24,724 bases of DNA. Source: a virus. Location: positions 1 to 24,724 of IMG/VR virus record IMGVR_UViG_3300042906_000415, one strand, 5' to 3'. Below are positions 175 to 24,724 of this stretch, one piece after another (the first letter of the stretch is position 1; every line of letters begins with the position of its first letter). The translations under genes were made by a program, and so were the position numbers. The notes beneath the pieces are model-generated. The model was not told the DNA's origin. It was given only the letters and a program-made list of their open reading frames with translations, and did no database searches.

Positions 175-915
175 ATGGCAAACTTATTTGATCCAAGTAG
201 TATTTATGAACTCCTAGCTAAGTACGGGGCCGTTCCTCAAGTGTCTGGACGAAGCCCGTATTCCTCCGCGTCTGGAGAATATGAAACAGATACAAACAGA
301 ATTGTCGCGCCTGATCCAAGTTTAATGAGAAATCCTGAGCGTGCTGTATCTACGTTAAGTCACGAGATGTCACACGCTGCACAGCATCAGTTATTTTTTG
401 ACGCTGCTAGTAGAATCCAGACTAAAATTAGGAATAAAGAAAAAGTTTCTAATGAAGAAAAAAGATTCTTAGAAAATGCTAGAAAAATGTACGGCTCTTC
501 ATTCAGTACTATTGGACATTCGGATAGAAAGAAAGATAAAGAAAGTAAAGAAAATCTGGATGCTGCAATAGCCAAAATGTATAAACCGTCAGGCGCGTCT
601 GGAAAGATGTCTAATTGGGACTTTTATCGAACAAGTCCTATTGAATTACAGGCATTTGGTGTCGGAAGAATGACTAAAGGAGGAAAACAACAACAAGAAG
701 CAATTAACCCTTCAGATAACCCGCACTTAGACCCTTCTTTCGCAACTGAGTTTGCTATTTTGATGGAGCAGTTTAAGGGACTCCCGGAAGATGTAAAAAT
801 AAGACCTCAAAAAAGAGACGATTTCTTACGGGGACAGCGAGAGGCTCAAGATAAAAATCCAACATATCAGTTTGTTGACATAACTGCCGATCCTTTTAAG
901 CCGTCCATCAAATAA
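175..915 (+). CDS. HExxH zinc-metallopeptidase-like protein of unknown role
   Basis: A 246-residue protein starting 3 bases after the lysozyme stop. Residues 63-67 read HEMSH within STLSHEMSHAAQHQ, the zinc-binding HExxH motif of metallopeptidases. A later SPIELQAF segment supplies Glu157 as a possible third ligand, which would make a gluzincin-like arrangement. The middle (about residues 82-140) is lysine-rich and probably helical or disordered. I see no signal peptide or membrane segment. Base composition is clearly more AT-rich than the rest of the window, and 8 of its 13 leucines use TTA, suggesting recent acquisition (a moron-type gene). It sits in the lysis region just before a terminator. 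Its substrate is unknown: virion maturation, host-protein cleavage or help in lysis are all possible. Confidence 0.75.
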   Translation: MANLFDPSSIYELLAKYGAVPQVSGRSPYSSASGEYETDTNRIVAPDPSLMRNPERAVSTLSHEMSHAAQHQLFFDAASRIQTKIRNKEKVSNEEKRFLENARKMYGSSFSTIGHSDRKKDKESKENLDAAIAKMYKPSGASGKMSNWDFYRTSPIELQAFGVGRMTKGGKQQQEAINPSDNPHLDPSFATEFAILMEQFKGLPEDVKIRPQKRDDFLRGQREAQDKNPTYQFVDITADPFKPSIK

Positions 916-7113: not shown

Positions 7114-7198
7114 TGGTGCGGCTGGCGGGACTCGAACCCACACAGCGTAAGCCGGGAGATTTTAAGTCTCCTGTGTCTACCGATTCCACCACAGCCGC
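7114..7198 (-). tRNA. tRNA-Leu, anticodon UAA
   Basis: An 85-base class II tRNA. The acceptor stem GCGGCTG/CAGCCGC is perfect, the discriminator is A and CCA is encoded. The D-arm contains GTGGTGGAATCGGTAGACAC, the anticodon stem-loop is GAGA-CTTAAAA-TCTC with UAA at 7162-7164, and a short variable arm precedes the T-arm GGGTTCGAGTCCC. It reads UUA. It is embedded in the replication operon, 24 bases downstream of the SSB start, so it is probably cut from the early transcript. UUA is frequent in the AT-rich peptidase gene at 175-915. Confidence 0.96.
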
Positions 7199-7409: not shown

Positions 7410-9096
7410 TCTTGTACTCCCCGTCCAATGGACATCGTAACTTAAAATGTTGTCCTGCTTCCACAATGCTCAGTCGTGCAGCCTTGCCTGCTTCGTCGGC
7501 AACACTGGCGTGACACTCAAACTGAAACTCATCGTGGACATTGGCAACTAGCTTCACTGGCCACTTGTTCTTCTTGATCTTGTCATAGAACAAGCACAGT
7601 GCCTTCTTCATCACAATCGCTCCGGCACCTTGGAGTAGGCTGTTAAGTGCTGCATGCTCGGAGCGAACCCAAATCTTACGACCATCAAGCCCCGGTACAA
7701 AGCCCTTGCCTGCATACTTGGATACCTTATCTCGTAGAGCCTTGAGTGCGGGAGTCGCATTAAGGAAGGAACTTGTAAGTCTTTCACCGTCCTTTGCCGA
7801 CCCACCAACGATAGAACCAATCTTCGATGGCCCTGCCCCGTAGAGGAAAGCGTAGATGAACGTCTTTGCTTGATCCCGTGTCTGTAATCCTGCTGCTTTT
7901 TGATTCTTCGTGTGGACATCAGTTCCGTCCTTGGAAGACCCTTCCACAACCGTCTTGACATAATCGTCATCCTTCATGTAGTGTGCCAACATCCGAAGCT
8001 CTAGCCCTGATGCGTCACAGCCAACCAAGACATTTCCAGTCTCAACAGTCCAGCACTGACGGCACTCAGGCCCATAGACAGAACCCGCATTGGGAATCTG
8101 TGCCATGTTCGGGCTTTGGTGTGTCATCCGGCCTGTTACAGCGCCATTGGTGATAACCCTACCATGCACCCTGCCATCAGAGCCTACAGCCTCCATCCAA
8201 GACTCAATCTGTGCCACACGCTTCTGTAGCATCAGGTACTCAGCAATCAGTTTAGCCTCTGGAAGTTCGATCTTCGACAGGATAGATTCGTCAACCATCG
8301 GCTGTCCTGTCTCTGTGAACTTCTCTGGCTTCCACCCAAGCTCAATCAGCTTTTCTCCGATCTGCTTGCGTGATCCTGGGTTGAAAGTAACCAACAACGG
8401 CTTGAGTTGCTTTCCTGTCTTTTCACTGACTCGTGGGACTTCGTATGATGGCCATCGCTGCTGCATTGACTCATATACTTCTGCCATTCTTCCCTTGATG
8501 TCAACAAGTAGCAGGGTTGCGTACTCTTGATCCAACTTGAAACCATTTCGTTCCTGCTCCGCAATGATGGCTGCAACCTTGTGCTCAAGGTCAACAGACT
8601 CCTGACTGAACTCCTTGCGGGTGACTTCCTCTGTCAGTCTACGGTACAACAGTTCAGTGACTTCTACGTCTGCCGTACAGTATTCCACCAGAAGGTCAGG
8701 GAAAGGATTGTCAAAGCATTCACCTTTGTAGGCTTGCTGCCGTCCAGCAAGTTCTTCCCAACGTGTAGCGTAGTCAATCTTTTCCTTCCCGAGTGTCTTC
8801 CCCCATGCCTCCAGGCTGTGTCCTTGCTCTCGACTCGGATCGAGCAGCCTTGACACTATTAGAGTATCGTAGCATTGGCTCAAACGAATCCTCGTCTGCC
8901 AAGTACGATTTAGGATCGGTGCATCGAACGCCAGAATGTTTTGGCCGATTATTAACGTAGCGTCCTTTAAATACGCCCCGAGGGTCGCGGCTTCCTTCCA
9001 TGTCTTTATCTCTTTACTGTCAATGTCTTTAGTGATTACCAAGTGAATCGTACGGTGATCCGTCGATGTTTCGATGTCCAGCACTAGCCTTTTCAT
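7381..9096 (-). CDS. polA: DNA polymerase A (T7 gp5-like) with 3'-5' exonuclease domain
   Basis: 571 residues. The N-terminal proofreading domain has LVLDIET (Asp7, Glu9), AFDAP (Asp58) and YCTADVE (Tyr139, Asp143). The palm has motif A GCDASGLELR (Asp361), motif B RDQAKTFIYAFLYGAG (407-422) and motif C NVHDEF (His521-Asp522-Glu523). Motif B is close to that of T7 polymerase, with Tyr415 at the position equal to E. coli Phe762. It is shorter than T7 gp5 (704 residues), and I see no obvious thioredoxin-binding insertion. It replicates the genome with the primase-helicase, whose gene lies upstream with one small gene between. Confidence 0.95.
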   Translation of the reverse strand: MKRLVLDIETSTDHRTIHLVITKDIDSKEIKTWKEAATLGAYLKDATLIIGQNILAFDAPILNRTWQTRIRLSQCYDTLIVSRLLDPSREQGHSLEAWGKTLGKEKIDYATRWEELAGRQQAYKGECFDNPFPDLLVEYCTADVEVTELLYRRLTEEVTRKEFSQESVDLEHKVAAIIAEQERNGFKLDQEYATLLLVDIKGRMAEVYESMQQRWPSYEVPRVSEKTGKQLKPLLVTFNPGSRKQIGEKLIELGWKPEKFTETGQPMVDESILSKIELPEAKLIAEYLMLQKRVAQIESWMEAVGSDGRVHGRVITNGAVTGRMTHQSPNMAQIPNAGSVYGPECRQCWTVETGNVLVGCDASGLELRMLAHYMKDDDYVKTVVEGSSKDGTDVHTKNQKAAGLQTRDQAKTFIYAFLYGAGPSKIGSIVGGSAKDGERLTSSFLNATPALKALRDKVSKYAGKGFVPGLDGRKIWVRSEHAALNSLLQGAGAIVMKKALCLFYDKIKKNKWPVKLVANVHDEFQFECHASVADEAGKAARLSIVEAGQHFKLRCPLDGEYKIGKNWKETH

Positions 9097-9211
9097 ATCT
9101 GGCTTTCAGTTCTTCATACTCGTGGATTAGACTCTGGTGATTCCTTAGTAGCTCGTCATACTTCCCCTCCAGTTCCCACACCCGAGCCACGAGTGATTCT
9201 ATGTCCATCAT
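9029..9211 (-). CDS. Small coiled-coil protein (60 aa)
   Basis: Starts with tandem ATG codons whose first ATG overlaps the primase-helicase stop as ATGA (9208-9211). The N-terminal 40 residues show a heptad-like pattern (IESLVARVWELEGKYDELLRNHQSLIHEYEELKARYEKA) typical of a coiled coil. The C-terminal third overlaps the polymerase start by 68 bases in another frame and is polar. Position between helicase and polymerase suggests a replisome adaptor or simply a spacer gene. No family is recognised. Confidence 0.6.
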   Translation of the reverse strand: MMDIESLVARVWELEGKYDELLRNHQSLIHEYEELKARYEKASAGHRNIDGSPYDSLGNH

Positions 9212-10791
9212 AATGTTTCCTCAACCTCAAGCATTCTGCCTGTGTAAGTGTCAAACAACAAGTGACACGCAGGGCCGGTGTAGCCATTGTACCTGTTCTT
9301 GGCCACTGAAACCTTTGTCGTGTGCCTGTCATTGTGATCCTCTGCCATGCTGTTACGTTCCAGTGTAATCACTGCATCCGACAACTGAGCAATGGCCCCT
9401 GATCCCCGCAATTGAGACAACGACACTGCCTGCCCATCCTCGTGCCCTGCATTGCCCGTGGGCCTACGAAGGTGAGACACACAGAATAGCGTAATCCCAA
9501 GCTCCTGTACCAGTGTCCGCAGCTTAGTCATCAGATTGTCAATGGCCTTACGCTCATCGCCTAAGTCCTGCCCTGACACCACGATACTGATGTGATCCAG
9601 GAACACAACCTTACAGTCCAAAGCCTTAGCCATGTAACGGATACGGTTCAGCACATTCTCAATCTCCAGCGATCCGAAGTGATCGAACAGGAATACACGC
9701 CCGGTTCCAAGAGTCGCATCGAAGGCATCCTTCAGTTCTTCGCCGGTCACTGGAGTGTCTGGCAAGTGCAGCATCTTGTTAGCGTGTACTGACATGATGC
9801 TTCGTGCTGTCTTGCGTACAGACTCTTCCAGGAACATAGCTCCGATCTTCCAGTCCGTTGTCTTGAGCAGTCCGTACAGGATTTCCCGTAGGAACTGACT
9901 CTTACCCAAGCCTGATCCGGCGGTGACGGTAATCAGTTCAGCGTCACGGATGCCGTACAGCAGCTTGTTCAGTCCTTTCCACGGGTAATGCGCCTTAGCA
10001 GGCTGCTCGGGAGTGCTAACAGAGTCCCACAGATCAGCCGAGTTAACGATACCGTCCGGTACATAGACTTCTGCTTTCCACCACTCTGAAACAAATTCCT
10101 TAGTCGCGCCAGCAATGAGGTAGTCACAAGCATCTTTGAACCCCGACAGATGTTTTACGATCTTCGCCTTAGGCCCAAACAGCTCAGCCACTTCTTTGGC
10201 TGCCTTGCGTCCAGGCTCATCAGCATCAAAGCAGATTACAATGTTCTCGAAACTGTCTAGCCACTCAAACTGTGCCTTACAGTCCTTCAGGGCTGCGTTA
10301 GCACCGTTACGGATAGACACAACAGGCCACTGACTCCCGGTAAGTTGGTAAGCAGCAAGGGCATCCAGTTCGCCTTCGACCAAAGTAACATACTTACCTC
10401 CCTGATGGAACAGGTTTTGACCAAACAGCTTAGCCTGCTGGAAGTCTCCACGGATGGAAAACTTCTTCTCTTCTACATTCCTGACCTTGTAAGCGACGAT
10501 GGCAGAATCATTGTCAAGATACGGGTAATAATGGTTTGAATCATCTTGCAGGACTCCGAACTTTTCACAGGTTTGTCGATTGATGCCACGCTCAGGGATG
10601 CCCCTGACAGTGCCGCTAACGCTCAGGCTCTTAGCCTTGGGCGGTTTCGGTGCTTGTTGAGTGTCTTCCACGCTTACCCTCGTAGTGTTACAAGCGAAGC
10701 AGTGTGTGTGCCCGTCATCGTACAGCGCATTAGCGTCTGAGCTTTTACACGAAGGGCATTCAATATGCTTAACGAACTTTGATTCTGTCAA
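9208..10791 (-). CDS. Bifunctional DNA primase-helicase (T7 gp4-like)
   Basis: 527 residues in three parts. An N-terminal zinc finger CPSC...CFAC (Cys12, 15, 31, 34) recognises primer sites. A TOPRIM primase domain has VEGELDALAAY (Glu139) and CFDADEPGRK (Asp189, Asp191). A RecA-like DnaB-family helicase has Walker A AGSGLGKS (291-298), Walker B KVVFLDH and the late QLRGSGAIAQLSD motif. Length is close to T7 gp4. The start is TTG, overlapping the preceding stop as TTGA, with GGAG 6 bases upstream. It unwinds the fork and lays primers for the polymerase encoded just downstream. Confidence 0.95.
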   Translation of the reverse strand: MTESKFVKHIECPSCKSSDANALYDDGHTHCFACNTTRVSVEDTQQAPKPPKAKSLSVSGTVRGIPERGINRQTCEKFGVLQDDSNHYYPYLDNDSAIVAYKVRNVEEKKFSIRGDFQQAKLFGQNLFHQGGKYVTLVEGELDALAAYQLTGSQWPVVSIRNGANAALKDCKAQFEWLDSFENIVICFDADEPGRKAAKEVAELFGPKAKIVKHLSGFKDACDYLIAGATKEFVSEWWKAEVYVPDGIVNSADLWDSVSTPEQPAKAHYPWKGLNKLLYGIRDAELITVTAGSGLGKSQFLREILYGLLKTTDWKIGAMFLEESVRKTARSIMSVHANKMLHLPDTPVTGEELKDAFDATLGTGRVFLFDHFGSLEIENVLNRIRYMAKALDCKVVFLDHISIVVSGQDLGDERKAIDNLMTKLRTLVQELGITLFCVSHLRRPTGNAGHEDGQAVSLSQLRGSGAIAQLSDAVITLERNSMAEDHNDRHTTKVSVAKNRYNGYTGPACHLLFDTYTGRMLEVEETL

Positions 10792-18916: not shown

Positions 18917-20122
18917 TTGAACATCGAAAAGATCGACATCTCCGTGTTAATCCCATACGCACGGAACGCAAGAACCCACAGCGACGAGCAGATCGCCCAG
19001 ATCGCCGGAAGCATAAAAGAGTTTGGGTTCAACAACCCCGTCCTGATCGACAAGGACAACGGGGTTATAGCGGGGCATGGGAGACTGGCTGCGGCAAGGA
19101 AGCTGAGCCTCAAGGAAGTCCCCTGCATCCGTCTGGAGCATCTCACCGAGACCCAGAGGAAAGCCTACATCCTGGCAGACAACAGGATCGCCCTTAACTC
19201 AGGGTGGGAGGCCGAACTTCTAAGCCTGGAGCTAAGTGAGCTTCTGGATGGCGGTGTAAACCTGGAAAGCCTAGGTTTCGACGCAGACGAGATCGACGCT
19301 CTACTGAACAAAATAGAACCGACTGAAGGACTGACGGACGAGGACGCAACACCGGAAGTCCCTGAAGAGCCAGTCACAAAGCCTGGAGATGTTTGGATTC
19401 TCGGTAAGCACCGCCTGATGTGCGGGGACTCCACTAGCGTAGATGCTGTGGATAAGTTGATGGCAGGCCAAAAGGCCGACATGGTGTTCACCGACCCACC
19501 GTATGGGGTTGACTACAAAGGCATCAACAATGACGGCAGGGATGGGCTAGAGGAGCTTTTAAGAGGTGCTTTTGGCAATTTCCTGGCATCATCAAAGGCT
19601 GGTGCGTCTTGCTATGTTTTTCATTCAGATAAGTGCGCTGATATTTTTCATAAGGTTTTCAGAGAGTTTTTCCATTTCAGCAGCATGATTATCTGGGCGA
19701 AAAACAGCCTCACACTCTCAAGAACAGATTACCAAAGCCAACACGAGCCTTGCCTATATGGTTGGATGAAAGACGGCTCTCATTCGTTTTATGGGGACAG
19801 AAAACAGGTTAGTGTCTGGAGGTTTGATAAGGAGCGCGTCCAAGGACACACAACGCCAAAGCCTGTTGCATTGATTGAAAGAGCAATACAGAACTCAAGC
19901 AAAAGCGGAGACTTGATCTCAGACCTGTTTGGCGGCTCCGGCTCCACGCTCATCGCGGCAGAGAAGACAGGGCGCATTGCCAGATTGATGGAGCTTGACG
20001 CAAAGTATTGCGATGTCATAGTAAAACGCTGGCAAGACTTCACAGGCAAGCAGGCAACACTAGAGTCAACAGGCCAAACCTATAGCGAACTTACTGAACT
20101 TTCGGGATTACAAAATGCATAA
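18917..20122 (+). CDS. ParB-like domain fused to DNA methyltransferase
   Basis: 401 residues, TTG start with AAAGGAG 5 bases upstream. Residues 1-130 are a ParB/Sulfiredoxin-like N-terminal domain: SVLIPYARNARTH, FGFNNPVLID, VIAGHGRLAAARKL. Residues 155-375 are an amino-methyltransferase with motif IV TDPPYG (192-197) before the SAM-binding FGGSGST (338-344), the beta-type order of N6-adenine/N4-cytosine enzymes. Phages use such fusions to modify their own DNA, probably against host restriction; no restriction enzyme is next to it. The stretch around 19550-19900 is more AT-rich than both flanks, hinting at a recombinant centre. It begins the packaging operon. Confidence 0.92.
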   Translation: MNIEKIDISVLIPYARNARTHSDEQIAQIAGSIKEFGFNNPVLIDKDNGVIAGHGRLAAARKLSLKEVPCIRLEHLTETQRKAYILADNRIALNSGWEAELLSLELSELLDGGVNLESLGFDADEIDALLNKIEPTEGLTDEDATPEVPEEPVTKPGDVWILGKHRLMCGDSTSVDAVDKLMAGQKADMVFTDPPYGVDYKGINNDGRDGLEELLRGAFGNFLASSKAGASCYVFHSDKCADIFHKVFREFFHFSSMIIWAKNSLTLSRTDYQSQHEPCLYGWMKDGSHSFYGDRKQVSVWRFDKERVQGHTTPKPVALIERAIQNSSKSGDLISDLFGGSGSTLIAAEKTGRIARLMELDAKYCDVIVKRWQDFTGKQATLESTGQTYSELTELSGLQNA

Positions 20123-20468
20123 GACTTCAGGGCAAGGCGTAGCCCATAAGCCAAATGATGAAAACCGAAAGGTCGTAAAGATGCTTAGCGCGGTAGGCAC
20201 TAGGCACGAGGATATTGCTTCCAAGCTGGATATCACCGACGACACCCTTCGCAAGCATTACAGGAAAGAACTGGACGAGGGCCGTATTGAGGCCAATGCG
20301 TCTGTGGCGCAGACTCTGTATCAGCAAGCCAAAAACGGGAACACCACCGCGGCTATCTTCTGGCTCAAGACCCGCGCCCAATGGCGGGAGAATGACCGAC
20401 TCGAGGTGACGGGGGCAAATGGCAACCCGCTGGAGATGGTGATCTCATGGGCAAACGAGAAATCGTAA
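20115..20468 (+). CDS. terS: Terminase small subunit
   Basis: 117 residues. N-terminal helix-turn-helix: ENRKVVKMLSAVGTRHEDIASKLDITDDTLRKHYRKELDEGR, followed by helices ANASVAQTLYQQAKNGNTTAAIFWLKTRAQWRE. The 'QTLY..A..GN..A.IFWLK.R..W.E' pattern is characteristic of phage small terminases of this type, which recognise the packaging site and regulate the large subunit. It overlaps the methyltransferase end by 8 bases and the large subunit start by 22. Confidence 0.88.
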   Translation: MHKTSGQGVAHKPNDENRKVVKMLSAVGTRHEDIASKLDITDDTLRKHYRKELDEGRIEANASVAQTLYQQAKNGNTTAAIFWLKTRAQWRENDRLEVTGANGNPLEMVISWANEKS

Positions 20469-21709
20469 TTCCCTATTCCCCGCGGGAGCCACAGCTCGCC
20501 ATCCATCAGATGATGCGGGATCGCCGCTTTGGGGTGGTGGTTGCTCACCGACGGATGGGAAAGACCGTCGCCGCCCTAAACCACATCATTCGGGATGCCG
20601 TGGAGAACCGTAAGGAAGCCCCCCGGTATGCTTACATCGCTCCTACTTATGGGCAGGCAAAGCGGGTGGCCTGGGACTATCTGCTGAAATACACAGAGCC
20701 TCTGGGCGCGACTCCAAACATCTCGGAACTCCGCACGGACTTCTGGGGTCGCAGAATCCAGCTCTACGGCTCAGACAATCCTGACTCCCTCCGAGGCCAA
20801 TACTTCGATGGCGTCATCATTGACGAGATTGCCGACCAAGACCCGCGAATCTGGACTGACATTGTTCGTCCTGCGCTGTCAGACCGACTGGGCTGGGCGC
20901 TGTTCCTCGGAACCCCAAAGGGATCAAACCACTTCAAAGACCTGAGAGACCAGGCCGAGGAAGAGGAAGACTGGGGCTTACTAGAGTTCAGAGCCTCACA
21001 GACTCACCTTATTCCTGAGTCGGAACTCCACGCCGCCAAGCGTGAGATGGGTGTGGACAAGTACAACCAGGAGTTCGAATGCTCCTTCCATGCCGCTGTC
21101 GAAGGTTCTTACTACGGGGCGCTGATAAACGACCTGGAGGAGAAGGGCAGGCTCACGAACATTGACCGGGACGATCTGACCCGGACATTCACCGCTTGGG
21201 ACTTGGGTATGTCTGACACCACCGCGATCTGGGTGGTTCAGGTGGTCGGCCAAGAGTACCGAGTGATGGATTTCGTGGAAAACCACGGCCAAGGGCTAGA
21301 TTGGTATGTGAACTGGCTCAGAGAGAATAAGTGGCATACCGCCGAACACATCTTGCCTCATGACGTAGAAGTGCGAGAATTGGGGACAGGACGCAGCAGA
21401 AAGGAAATGCTGCAAGAGGCAGGGCTACAAATAACCGTCGCTCCGCGCTTGTCAGTTGCAGATGGAATCCAGAGCGTCAGACGCATTCTCCCGAAGTGCT
21501 GGTTTAATGTGCCGAAGGTGAAGCAAGGTCTAGACGCGCTCAGGAACTATCGGCGCAACTTTGACGAGAAGAGAAACGTATTCTTTGACACACCGCTACA
21601 CGACTGGGCCTCTCATTCGTCCGATGCGTTCCGATACTTCGCTATCGGGATTCACGAACAGGGCGACTGGAGCAAGCCGATTAGCGTTAACACAAGGTGG
21701 GTGGTCTAA
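20447..21709 (+). CDS. terL: Terminase large subunit
   Basis: 420 residues. The ATPase domain has an adenine-binding Q motif region (PREPQLAIHQ), Walker A VAHRRMGKT (32-40), Walker B GVIIDE (122-127) and the coupling motif LGTPKGSNHF (154-163). The C-terminal RNase H-like nuclease domain begins at TAWDLGMSDTTAIW with Asp252 and continues to the HDWASHSSDAFRY motif supplying later acidic residues. It pumps and cuts concatemeric DNA into procapsids at the portal. Length is at the compact end for this family. The stop overlaps the next small frame as TAATG. Confidence 0.95.
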   Translation: MGKREIVIPYSPREPQLAIHQMMRDRRFGVVVAHRRMGKTVAALNHIIRDAVENRKEAPRYAYIAPTYGQAKRVAWDYLLKYTEPLGATPNISELRTDFWGRRIQLYGSDNPDSLRGQYFDGVIIDEIADQDPRIWTDIVRPALSDRLGWALFLGTPKGSNHFKDLRDQAEEEEDWGLLEFRASQTHLIPESELHAAKREMGVDKYNQEFECSFHAAVEGSYYGALINDLEEKGRLTNIDRDDLTRTFTAWDLGMSDTTAIWVVQVVGQEYRVMDFVENHGQGLDWYVNWLRENKWHTAEHILPHDVEVRELGTGRSRKEMLQEAGLQITVAPRLSVADGIQSVRRILPKCWFNVPKVKQGLDALRNYRRNFDEKRNVFFDTPLHDWASHSSDAFRYFAIGIHEQGDWSKPISVNTRWVV

Positions 21710-21888
21710 TGTGGGCAACGCCTCAAGGCAACATCAACGCCAAACTCGCGGAGCTGGAGCGACGCATCAAAGCGTTAGAGGAAAAGCATGAATCAAATCA
21801 GCCTGAAAAGCCTGCTCGAGGCCGAAATCGATGGAGCGATCGGGTATCTCCAAACGGAGACAACCGAGCAGAGAACCCGGTCACTTGA
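21709..21888 (+). CDS. Small coiled-coil ORF between terminase and portal (59 aa)
   Basis: Starts at the TAATG junction with terL. MWATPQGNINAKLAELERRIKALEEKHESNQPEKP... begins with a short coiled-coil helix, then a polar tail that overlaps the portal gene by 101 bases in another frame. The N-terminal part is the only coding content in the 78-base space before the portal start. It may be a real minor protein or a coupling frame. No family is recognised. Confidence 0.45.
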   Translation: MWATPQGNINAKLAELERRIKALEEKHESNQPEKPARGRNRWSDRVSPNGDNRAENPVT

Positions 21889-23833
21889 GTATTACCTTCG
21901 TTACCCTTACGGGAACGAGGTAGAGGGTCGAAGCCAGATCGTCACCGGAGAGGTGGCAGAGGTCATTGACGGCGCGATTCCTCAACTGATCCGCATCTTC
22001 ACCGCCTCGGATGACATCATCCGTTACGAGCCTGTCGGCCCCGGTGATGAGCAGGGCGCGAATCAAGCCACGGACTACTCGAACTGGGTGTTCTACAAGG
22101 ACAACCCTGGTTTCGCCATCCTGCACGATTGGTTCAAGGATGCGCTGCTTGAGAAGGTCGGCGTGGTCAAGGCTTACTGGGATAACAAGATTGACGTTAT
22201 CAAAGAGACCTACGAGAACCTGAGCGATGCGGAACTGGCGATGCTCCTGTCAGATGGGACTCGGGAGATCATCGAGCAGGAAACAATCGTCAAGCAGGTT
22301 TTAGACCTTCAAGGCAACCCCGCTATCGGGATGGACGGCGTAGAGATCACCGAGGTTTACTACAACGTCAAGGTTAGGAAGAAGAACCAAGTCGGACGGG
22401 TGGCGATCCAGAACATTCCTCCCGAGGAGTTCCTGATCTCCAAGAAGGCCACAACGATCCAGGACTCACCCTTTGTCGCTCACCGTCGACTGATGCCTCG
22501 GTCTGACCTGGTGGCAATGGGCTTTCCTGAAGAGGTTGTCCGCGACCTCCCGGCTTACGATGACCTAAGTTTCTCTCCTGAGCGCGTGGCTCGGTACTCT
22601 GAGGGCGAGCAGCCTAGCCAAGACGAAAGCCTCGACCCGACCATGCAGGATGTGGAGGTGTACGAGTGCTATATCCGCGCAGACCGGGATGGTGATGGTC
22701 TGGCCGAGCTTCTCCAGGTTTGGTACGCCGGAAGCGAGATTCTCGAGGAAACGGAAACGGACTACATTCCTTTCCATAGCCTCTGCCCGATTCCTGTTCC
22801 GCACAAGTTCTATGGCTTGTCCCTCGCGGATAAGGTCATGGATTTGCAGCTGCAGAAGTCCACGATCACCCGGCAGATGCTGGACAACCTGTATCTGACG
22901 AACAACTACCGGGTCGGTGCGGTGGATGGTCAGGTAAACCTGGACGATCTCATCTCTCCCACGCCTGGTGGTGTGATTCGGATGAAGAACCCCAATGCGG
23001 TGGTTCCGATGGCGGTTCAGCCTGTGGCGAACCAAGCCTTCCCGATGCTCGAGTATCTGGATGCAGTCCAGGCCAAGCGCACGGGCGTTTCGGATGCTAC
23101 GCAGGGTCTTGATCCAAATGTCCTGCAGAACGTCACCGCTACGGCTGTGGCTGCGTTCCAGAACGCCTCTGCTGGCAAGATGGAACTCATCGCTAGGAAC
23201 TTCGCTGAGACCGGCGTAAAGAGTCTGTTCAAGGGCATCCTCCAGCTCCTGTGCAAGTACCAAGACAAGCCCCGGATTATTCGGATGCGGGGTCAGTACG
23301 TCCAAATGGATCCCCGTGAATGGTCGAATCAGTACGATGTGAGCATCTCTGTCGGACTGGGAACGGGCAACAAGCAAGAGCAGATGGCGATGCTTGCGAT
23401 GATCCTGGACAAGCAGGAGCGGATTCTTCAGCAGTTCGGCCCTGCCAATCCTCTGGTGTCGGTGGCTCAGTACCGCGACACTCTTGGAAGGATGATTGAA
23501 GCCGCAGGATTCAAGGACTCGGCGACCTTCTTCAAGCCGATCACGCCTGAGATCGACCAGGCTCTGAGCAATCCTCCTCCGCAGCAGCAGCAACCCGATC
23601 CGGCCATCCAAGCGATGATGATGCAGGCTCAGGCCCAGTTGGAGATTGACCGCCAGAAGGCTTTGGCCGACATTCAAGCCAAGCGAGAAAAGGCGGCGGC
23701 TGAGATTCAACTGGCACGAGAGAAGGCTGCGGCTGAACTGGAGCTGAAGCGCCAAGAGTTCGAGGCTGAAGTCCAACTCAAGGCTGCAAAGCTCGGCGCA
23801 GGCATTTCCTCTAACGTAGAGATTCCGGGGTAA
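21788..23833 (+). CDS. Portal protein (head-tail connector)
   Basis: 681 residues, podovirus-like portal of the large (P22/T7-size) type. The N-terminus has SLEYYLRYPYGNEVEGRSQIVTGEVAEVIDGAIPQLIRIFTASDDIIRYEP, a conserved portal opening. LADKVMDLQLQKSTITRQMLDNLYLTNN and GVSDATQGLDPNVLQNVTATAV mark the stem and crown regions. From residue ~600 there is a PPPQQQQPDP linker, then a long charged coiled coil (QKALADIQAKREKAAAEIQLAREKAAAELELK). It forms the dodecameric ring through which DNA enters and to which the tail attaches. GAGG precedes the ATG. Confidence 0.92.
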   Translation: MNQISLKSLLEAEIDGAIGYLQTETTEQRTRSLEYYLRYPYGNEVEGRSQIVTGEVAEVIDGAIPQLIRIFTASDDIIRYEPVGPGDEQGANQATDYSNWVFYKDNPGFAILHDWFKDALLEKVGVVKAYWDNKIDVIKETYENLSDAELAMLLSDGTREIIEQETIVKQVLDLQGNPAIGMDGVEITEVYYNVKVRKKNQVGRVAIQNIPPEEFLISKKATTIQDSPFVAHRRLMPRSDLVAMGFPEEVVRDLPAYDDLSFSPERVARYSEGEQPSQDESLDPTMQDVEVYECYIRADRDGDGLAELLQVWYAGSEILEETETDYIPFHSLCPIPVPHKFYGLSLADKVMDLQLQKSTITRQMLDNLYLTNNYRVGAVDGQVNLDDLISPTPGGVIRMKNPNAVVPMAVQPVANQAFPMLEYLDAVQAKRTGVSDATQGLDPNVLQNVTATAVAAFQNASAGKMELIARNFAETGVKSLFKGILQLLCKYQDKPRIIRMRGQYVQMDPREWSNQYDVSISVGLGTGNKQEQMAMLAMILDKQERILQQFGPANPLVSVAQYRDTLGRMIEAAGFKDSATFFKPITPEIDQALSNPPPQQQQPDPAIQAMMMQAQAQLEIDRQKALADIQAKREKAAAEIQLAREKAAAELELKRQEFEAEVQLKAAKLGAGISSNVEIPG

Positions 23834-23836
23834 GTC

Positions 23837-24724
23837 ATGGCAACACAAGCGCAAATCAGAGAGCTTTACCGCACTTATCTCGGGCGAGAGCCTGATGCCG
23901 CTGGTCTTGAGTTCTACTCAAACCCGCAGTTCAGCCTTAGCCTGATTGCTGATGACATTGCCAACTCTGCCGAGGCAAGGCAGTTCGCTCAGCGTGCAGC
24001 AGAGAGTGAGGCGGTAAGGGCGCAGCAATACGCTACGGGGAATCCCGCAACAGAGGCAGAGGTTCGCTCCGCATACCAGGACATTCTTGGACGCGCCCCC
24101 GATCAAGCAGGATTGGATTTCTACCTCCAGTCGGACTTCTCTCCTGAGCAAATTCGTGGTGTTCTGCTTGGCTCTCCTGAGCGTCAGGGCATGGCTGCGC
24201 GTGAGTATGCGACTGGCACACCGGCGACAGAGGCTGAAATCAGGCAGATTTACCGAGATGTTCTAGGCCGGGAAGCAGATAAGGCTGGTCTTCAGTTTTA
24301 TCTGGGATCTGACTTCTCAGCCGATCAGATTCGGGCGAACATCCAAGGCTCTCCCGAGAATATGCAGCTCGCCACCAATCCGGCTCAGCGAGCAGGGTTT
24401 ACACCGGCACAGATCGGCCCGGTGATTTCTCCTACGAGTACCTACAACTACTTCCCCACCAACGGCCCGTATGGTGCTGGTCGATTTGGCGCAACGATAA
24501 ATCCGTTCTTTTTCTCTGCGCCGACCTCTGGGATGCAGACCATTCCGACTCAGCCTACGCGCCAGACCGCTCTTGGCACAACTGGTGGAGAGACCACAAC
24601 TGTTAACCCCGCTCCTGGCGGTGGCGTTAGCGGTGTGGTTGGTGGTGGAACCGTCAGCGGTCTGTTGACGAATGGATCAACCGCAACGACTGGGACAACT
24701 GCCACTTTTGACCCAAACACGGGG
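23837..24724 (+). CDS. DUF4214-repeat protein, 3' end beyond the window
   Basis: Open from the ATG at 23837 (GGGG 6 bases upstream) to the window edge, 296 codons so far. Three repeats of the DUF4214 type occupy residues 9-51, 79-120 and 138-180, each of form 'YR..LGREPD.AGL.FY......S...I...I..SPE'. They are joined by near-identical linkers (YATGNPATEAEVR, YATGTPATEAEIR). After residue 190 the sequence becomes Gly/Thr/Pro-rich and low-complexity. DUF4214 is mainly known from bacterial surface and secreted proteins. Its position right after the portal suggests a virion or scaffold-related protein; the role is not known. Confidence 0.85.
   Translation, partial: MATQAQIRELYRTYLGREPDAAGLEFYSNPQFSLSLIADDIANSAEARQFAQRAAESEAVRAQQYATGNPATEAEVRSAYQDILGRAPDQAGLDFYLQSDFSPEQIRGVLLGSPERQGMAAREYATGTPATEAEIRQIYRDVLGREADKAGLQFYLGSDFSADQIRANIQGSPENMQLATNPAQRAGFTPAQIGPVISPTSTYNYFPTNGPYGAGRFGATINPFFFSAPTSGMQTIPTQPTRQTALGTTGGETTTVNPAPGGGVSGVVGGGTVSGLLTNGSTATTGTTATFDPNTG

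Follow-up and report, generated by a model that had tools for sequence, protein, structure and literature searches.

A gene slot beside the phage portal in which whole reading frames, among them a triple DUF4214 gene, are exchanged between closely related phages

The head operon of a tailed phage usually ranks with its best-conserved parts, and the locus described here raises the question of what a gene opening with three DUF4214 repeats is doing in such an operon, directly after the portal gene. The window, by which the whole analysed stretch of 24,724 nucleotides (IMG/VR record IMGVR_UViG_3300042906_000415) is meant, carries the first part of this gene, hereafter gene X. An earlier note, made from the letters of the window, proposed that its product could be a scaffold, a head decoration or an adhesion-like virion protein, possibly with a domain taken from a host surface protein. 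What this first reading could not see is that the gene lies in a slot exchanged wholesale among near-identical phages. The slot exists: whole ORFs are exchanged in it at codon precision, otherwise unrelated X proteins keep a short movable motif, and payload domains recur among them. The features of the portal region are as follows.

20115–20468, plus strand: terminase small subunit (phrog_309, E = 9.1e-19)
20447–21709, plus strand: terminase large subunit (profile matches)
21788–23833, plus strand: portal protein (SU10_portal, E = 5.7e-222), the conserved 5′ neighbour of the slot
23837–24724, plus strand: first 296 codons of gene X, with an ATG start and no stop before the window end
23843–23998, plus strand: DUF4214 unit 1, aa 3–54 (19.2 bits singly, below the Pfam cut-off)
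24050–24202, plus strand: DUF4214 unit 2, aa 72–122 (24.4 bits singly)
24227–24382, plus strand: DUF4214 unit 3, aa 131–182 (23.6 bits singly)
24440–24523, plus strand: anchor region TYNYFPTNGPYGAGRFGATINPFFFSAP, assigned from the sequence and the pattern of the X family
24473–24487, plus strand: GAGRF core of the anchor region
24539–24724, plus strand: Gly/Thr-rich low-complexity tail with one GLL tripeptide at 24659–24667
L005:8001–9455: complete window-type X on a second contig

The triple DUF4214 gene directly after the portal is borne out, as X opens 3 nt past the end of the portal gene at 23833 and the Pfam match to DUF4214 (PF13946) comprises three stretches with an E-value of 1.8e-16 and 60.4 bits against a curated cut-off of 23.2 bits, which units 2 and 3, though not unit 1, exceed on their own. 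The near-identical linkers between the units (QQYATGNPATEAEVR and REYATGTPATEAEIR) and the Gly/Thr-rich tail are both present as well. X is incomplete in the window because the linear record of 24,724 bases ends inside the gene; the full-length gene, coding for 484 aa, was obtained from IMG/VR contig 3300043466_000025 (L005, also L013), whose X is 97% identical to that of the window over the common part and whose portal is 99.7% identical. The portal/X junction is the same on this contig as in the window, and related X genes, 69–73% identical, lie directly 3′ of the portal in L006, L007, L008, L009 and L010, so that a misplaced assembly join, which the earlier note had kept in mind, is unlikely.

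Besides DUF4214, the window X gives no Pfam match above the cut-off, no PHROG match at E <= 0.01 and no NCBIfam match. Judged by hydropathy, no export segment was found at the N-terminus of the complete window-type X (L013), in which the strongest 20-residue hydrophobic stretch is located at residue 426 and is weak (1.19). A membrane-inserting reading of the long X forms was rejected, the hydropathy signal being marginal there and lacking in the window type. GC3 is lower in X than in the portal gene (53% vs 70% in the window and 39% vs 70% in L014), which is unlike a core head gene. In the tail of the L005 X (8001–9455), for which the structure model is of low confidence, about four tandem repeats of ~30 aa each with the pattern FDxxTGGVxQGxxIxDPISGxVIG can be discerned by eye, modelled partly as strands, again with low confidence.

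Elsewhere in the window there is a ParB N-terminal domain fused with an N6/N4 DNA methyltransferase just 5′ of the terminase genes (18917–20122, plus strand) and a tRNA-Leu with the TAA anticodon (7114–7198, minus strand), which is flanked by minus-strand ORFs; reading by eye suggests a DNA polymerase for one of these. A weak metallopeptidase-like ORF (175–915, plus strand) remains below the Pfam cut-offs and has no PHROG match.

The structure of the repeat array was predicted, as the earlier note had recommended. Most of the full-length X model is unreliable (mean pLDDT 44.4), with the three DUF4214 units helical at ~65–80, and the model of units 2 and 3 based on 35 sequences is all helical with a mean pLDDT of 81.6. 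When the DUF4214 model was compared with the PDB using Foldseek, nothing reached an E-value of 0.001; the top rows are phycobilisome linkers (E = 0.3–0.5), and the N-terminal domain of LPS-bound RsaA is fourth (E = 0.47). The first VIA-align row is also a phycobilisome linker (Z 4.7, 48 residues, rmsd 1.9 Å, 21% identity) with many linkers below it, an unrelated chain standing at Z 4.6 and RsaA at Z 2.9–3.0 among unrelated rows of equal Z. The 35-sequence DUF4214 profile recovered the linker ApcE at an E-value of 3e-4, without any single stretch passing alone, and a 16-sequence profile recovered none at E-values of 1 or below. Of the predicted viral structures, DUF4214 proteins from uncultured Caudovirales phages match the fold best (E = 1.2e-4); databases therefore already contain phage DUF4214 as such. 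Judging by these models, the DUF4214 unit is likely to be a linker-like repeat. Ca2+-dependent O-antigen binding is described for the RsaA N-terminal domain in the accessible part of PMC6978808, and we hypothesize from the modelled fold that the DUF4214 array may bind glycan.

The surroundings of the slot were compared in viral contigs using the best 80 of 365 confirmed portal relatives plus eight X relatives. The gene order is terL – portal – X – small76 (coding for 76 aa) – scaffold – MCP; small76 was found in 65 of the 83 locus rows, and its start lies 347 to 3243 nt past the portal end in all 65 of them. A separate scaffold gene is located two genes 3′ of X in L005 (PHROG head scaffolding protein, E = 2.3e-50). 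Among the annotated phage records with a portal match, 15 of 304 were opened, and in 12 of these the portal gene is followed, without X, by a gene of ~60–120 aa or less (one record ends there), the remaining three possessing a large X-like gene; X is thus an accessory gene of the wider group but a constant one in the window lineage. According to the accessible part of PMC10386132, a related podovirus has seven congruently inherited core genes, namely those for the portal, tubeA, the scaffold, the capsid and three small proteins of unknown function, and we take it that X is not among them. Venkman, one of the X-less relatives, has a short tail as far as the accessible part of PMC10580990 goes, so a short tail is likely for the slot-bearing phages too. 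The accessible part of PMC6811365 contains nothing on a portal-adjacent exchange slot, nor the word “portal”, and none of the five papers that a literature search on such a slot brought up describes one, judging by titles and the beginnings of abstracts.

Two further observations concern the phages with portals ~66–70% identical to that of the window (L073–L089). Their TerL proteins are of two types, ~35–40% identical over 220 aa or ~69% identical, which suggests terminase replacement. One of these phages carries a short X of 116 aa without the motif in the same slot (L089:8085–8435).

Exchange in the slot was assessed on 25 loci in which X is complete and the portal shares at least 94% identity with that of the window, all of them metagenome contigs, giving 300 pairs. 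The portals of these pairs have a median identity of 96.5% (range 93.7–99.9%). Their X proteins share less than 5% matched residues in 151 of the 300 pairs, 5–50% in 102 and more in 47; the 151 unrelated pairs, counted as rows from related loci, are not independent. The upstream block of identity (median 93.9%) ends inside X at a median of 4 nt, which is the precise value in 78 of the 151 pairs, and never beyond 30 nt. The downstream block, for which 143 pairs gave a match, begins with precisely the final 3 nt of X in 127 of them and includes 10 nt of X at most. Since the flanks match up to the start codon of X and again from its stop codon, which in the exchange group overlaps the start of the next gene, the whole ORF is exchanged, as exemplified by L005 compared with L014 or with L036. 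Other pairs share parts of X, so modules recombine inside the gene as well. The X proteins of this set range in length from 343 to 1080 aa and fall into 12 N-terminal classes by the clustering rule, or somewhat fewer on visual inspection, as L023 and L019 start alike. TerL, small76 and the scaffold, where located, are 93–100% identical to those of the window or L005, and MCP is 95–98% identical in most of the group. In L039, L040 and L085 the MCP is only ~82% identical while the adjoining scaffold is ~95% identical, which suggests that the MCP allele has been replaced in these three loci.

The motif kept by the otherwise unrelated proteins was studied in 43 distinct X of 79, with a pattern defined after inspection of the sequences. 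G[AT][GQ]RF occurs in 29 of the 43, compared with a mean of 0.11 and a maximum of 1 in shuffled sequences, and a slightly wider pattern is found in every one of the 53 complete X whose portal shares at least 78% identity with that of the window, at positions ranging from 11% to 98% of the protein length. The most enriched tripeptide in the 43 X is GLL, observed 136 times against 17 expected and in 31 proteins against 13.6, a count inflated by homologous modules; most X of the lower-identity portal clades have no GLL. Scanning 2.9 million viral contigs for the DNA form of YGAGRFGA returned 34 stretches, of which 27 lie inside X genes, 22 on contigs already in the set and five new (L116, L119, L122, L123, L126); the remaining seven, with no adjoining portal, small gene or scaffold, look like chance occurrences. 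A contig from an alphaproteobacterial MAG, with a portal of 58% identity, encodes an X with YGAQRF; this protein (L105:5185–6759) has a Cys-containing end (GGGGCVIATHAVANG...) and no PHROG or NCBIfam match. The GAGRF motif is missing from X with portals below 75% identity, being found in none of 13 complete X and flagged in none of the 38 DUF4214 loci described below, and 16 X of these clades keep a longer C-terminal region of their own. Kinship of the GAGRF anchor with the C-terminal region in the clades with 61–74% portal identity was rejected (hhalign probability 0.05%).

The remainder of X is highly varied. A Pfam scan of 53 X detected DUF4214 in 15 and SGNH/GDSL hydrolase in 12. GDS and block III-like motifs are present in 17 loci, all in alleles other than that of the window, and a DxxH motif is found in nine of these by pattern and in five of the other eight by direct reading. 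SGNH/GDSL hydrolases with a Pfam match as well as the Ser and D-x-x-H motifs are present among these other alleles. One GDSL domain of X matches a solved acylhydrolase (E = 1.5e-5), and for a second one no solved relative was found. Other X contain extended repeats of coiled-coil or helical type. PHROG “minor head protein” is matched by some of the coiled-coil X (three of 53, best E = 2.2e-13) and PHROG “tail fiber protein” by one SGNH type (two of 53); a few coiled-coil X match scaffold families, PF06810 in three of 53 (best E = 9.5e-8; the match examined singly falls below the Pfam cut-off) and phrog_194 in two of 53. All these matches may have compositional reasons. A glycosidase-like barrel guessed from the sequence of the L014 X found no support. 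When five X queries were compared with 50,697 phage records using tblastn, the sole match of both the window X and the L075 X was EBPR siphovirus 2, the sole match of the SGNH part of L017 was Lactobacillus phage LF1 (two records), and the L020 and L021 X had no match.

A search of viral contigs with a profile of DUF4214 pairs returned 43 loci. In 34 of the 38 examined, the DUF4214 gene lies directly after a portal gene (61–71% identical to that of the window), 30 of these loci being on new contigs and four on contigs already seen, and in the other four it lies elsewhere; as the query was drawn from the portal-adjacent slot, the search leans towards the slot. The search for DUF4214 beside portals in other phages, which the earlier note had called for, thus gave a positive answer with this leaning. 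In two of the four exceptions (L152, L172) there is a PHROG virion structural protein upstream of the DUF4214 gene and a weak DNA ejection protein match downstream (E = 3e-4 and 3.5e-6), directly next to it in L172, with one or two other genes intervening otherwise. The proteins of L152, L161, L171 and L172, ~860–1090 aa long, join a DUF4214 core to a conserved GDGMSDSIP...FVVPADVV.HLGNGS.DAG stretch. The EBPR siphovirus 2 match of the window X is gp15, but in another gene context; it is annotated as a protease and starts with a DUF4214-like stretch (L004:3915–5198).

The suggestion that the domain had been taken from a host surface protein found no support in light testing, as far as recent capture is concerned. 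DUF4214 was detected in three of 190 and two of 185 sampled bacterial genomes of two classes (5/375), with many copies in two of them, and in their best short matches to the window units 14 fetched bacterial loci (of 57 listed) are no closer than ten distant phage loci. The two genomes with many copies, G017 and G150 (L178, L179, L181–L184, L186, L187), have 29 and 22 DUF4214 matches, and 187 of the 190 genomes of that sample have none. The occurrence of DUF4214 in the slot across portals down to 61% identity suggests an old association.

The explanation that we favour, with the case about evenly poised, is that X is an accessory virion protein supplied by a dedicated portal-adjacent exchange slot, docked by its motif and carrying an exchangeable envelope-directed payload. 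X would be made together with the head proteins and would become part of the virion, the motif docking it during assembly on a conserved partner of the head or portal vertex, for which the portal, MCP, scaffold and small76 proteins are candidates. The rest of the protein would be a payload acting on the host envelope, either on contact of the vertex with the cell or during ejection of the head contents; in the window it would consist of a triple helical DUF4214 array, most likely a surface-glycan binder, and a flexible low-complexity tail. Payload swapping may then fit phages that are near-clonal in other respects to differing surfaces or envelope barriers of their hosts. That the motif is common to X counts against a purely cytoplasmic role, the SGNH hydrolase in the particle proteome of Sinorhizobium phage phiM5 is a precedent for X in the virion, and the DUF4214 homologues between virion structural and weak ejection protein matches in L152 and L172 argue in the same direction. 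Against it speak the poor full-length X model, the weakness of the fold and profile matches, the X payloads that are not recognisably glycan-related, the X of the clades with portals below 75% identity, which have no GAGRF motif, and the GC3 of X, which is below that of the portal and unlike a core head gene.

A bolder reading, which we put forward only tentatively, is that of a plug-in payload system, in which a floating docking peptide would let a podovirus-like head take almost any protein at the portal vertex and payload genes would be swapped at codon precision among near-clonal phages, tracking host surface variation. Lectin-like DUF4214 arrays, esterases and coiled-coil rods are examples of such payloads.

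Two narrower forms of the favoured explanation differ in where X would act. According to the first, which is rather unlikely, X is an internal head protein packaged by means of the motif and injected with the DNA to counter host defences or breach the envelope, like T4 Ip1–3, which have only an N-terminal capsid-targeting leader in common and are encoded in a genomic hotspot, as the accessible part of PMC12373910 has it, and so resemble X with its motif. The weak DNA ejection protein match near the DUF4214-core homologues of L152 and L172 and the absence of an N-terminal hydrophobic segment from the window-type X (L013) are in line with this; however, T4 leaders are N-terminal whereas the X motif stands anywhere from 11% to 98% of the length, SGNH and DUF4214 payloads point to envelope or extracellular targets more than to cytoplasmic ones, and X forms reach 1080 aa. 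According to the second, which we also place on the unlikely side, X is an adhesin or decoration of the head or vertex surface holding the particle on host glycans. The SGNH hydrolases with Ser, Asp and His motifs are consistent with it, as are, weakly, the likeness of the DUF4214 fold to the O-antigen-binding RsaA domain and the frequency of variable adhesion genes in metaviromic islands (accessible part of PMC3909814), but nothing puts X outside the particle, the RsaA match is weak, and relatives carry annotated tail fibre genes elsewhere in the genome.

It is quite unlikely that X is moron-type cargo, expressed with the head operon and not present in the virion: such a gene would be accessory, precisely swapped and unlike the portal in codon usage, as X is, but unrelated morons would have no reason to share the motif, which is found without exception in the 53 complete X whose portals reach 78% identity. 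The scaffold suggested by the earlier note, or a portal-nucleation factor, is very improbable despite the position of X beside the portal and the few coiled-coil X matching scaffold families, as a separate scaffold gene is present two genes after X in L005, the scaffold stays conserved while X is swapped, X is absent from 12 of the 15 annotated relatives opened, and the window X itself has no scaffold-family match. That the variability of X is an artefact of metagenome assembly, all the exchange-compared loci being metagenome contigs, is hardly credible, given that no measured pair has a break more than 30 nt away from an ORF end, that the flanks continue on both sides, and that the same X alleles recur on separate contigs such as L034 and L036.

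If the favoured explanation, an accessory virion protein from an exchange slot, is true, a fixed slot that swaps unrelated genes yet retains the motif would lend itself naturally to display or delivery, and the diversification of phages would extend beyond the tail fibres to the head. The idea is open to direct tests through the motif and the precise boundaries of exchange, and the slot gives a first hypothesis for the role of DUF4214 in phages.

Several known systems share part of these characteristics. The phycobilisome linker (PF00427-type) and RsaA N-terminal folds bear a weak likeness to the modelled DUF4214 unit, a helical unit of ~50 residues, but their function is not transferable, the scores being at a level where unrelated helical chains also appear. 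The window X agrees with PF13946 proteins elsewhere in that its repeats match the family profile, whereas one bacterial example sits in a metalloprotease-like protein with further repeats. Phage phiM5, the portal of which is 38.7% identical to that of the window, has in common with the slot phages a related portal and an SGNH/GDSL hydrolase in the head block, annotated in its record as “detected in phage particle proteome”; in phiM5, however, the hydrolase is a separate gene after MCP, and portal and scaffold have no X between them.

Metaviromic islands of marine phages resemble the slot in containing virion genes that vary among relatives, often with glycan or host-recognition domains, but they hold the same genes with different sequence, whereas in the X slot unrelated ORFs replace each other at one place (PMC3909814, in the accessible part of which the main text does not contain the word “portal”). 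The T4 Ip locus is similar to X in comprising accessory head-associated hotspot genes, unrelated save for a short common peptide (accessible part of PMC12373910). It differs in that the T4 leader is N-terminal and directs packaging, whereas the putative docking motif of X floats (judged by position, at 11–98% of the length, it is not a T4-type N-terminal leader), and in that the X slot lies inside the head operon, beside the portal. The T4 Ip locus is the nearest working model for the slot and the metaviromic islands are the nearest ecological one.
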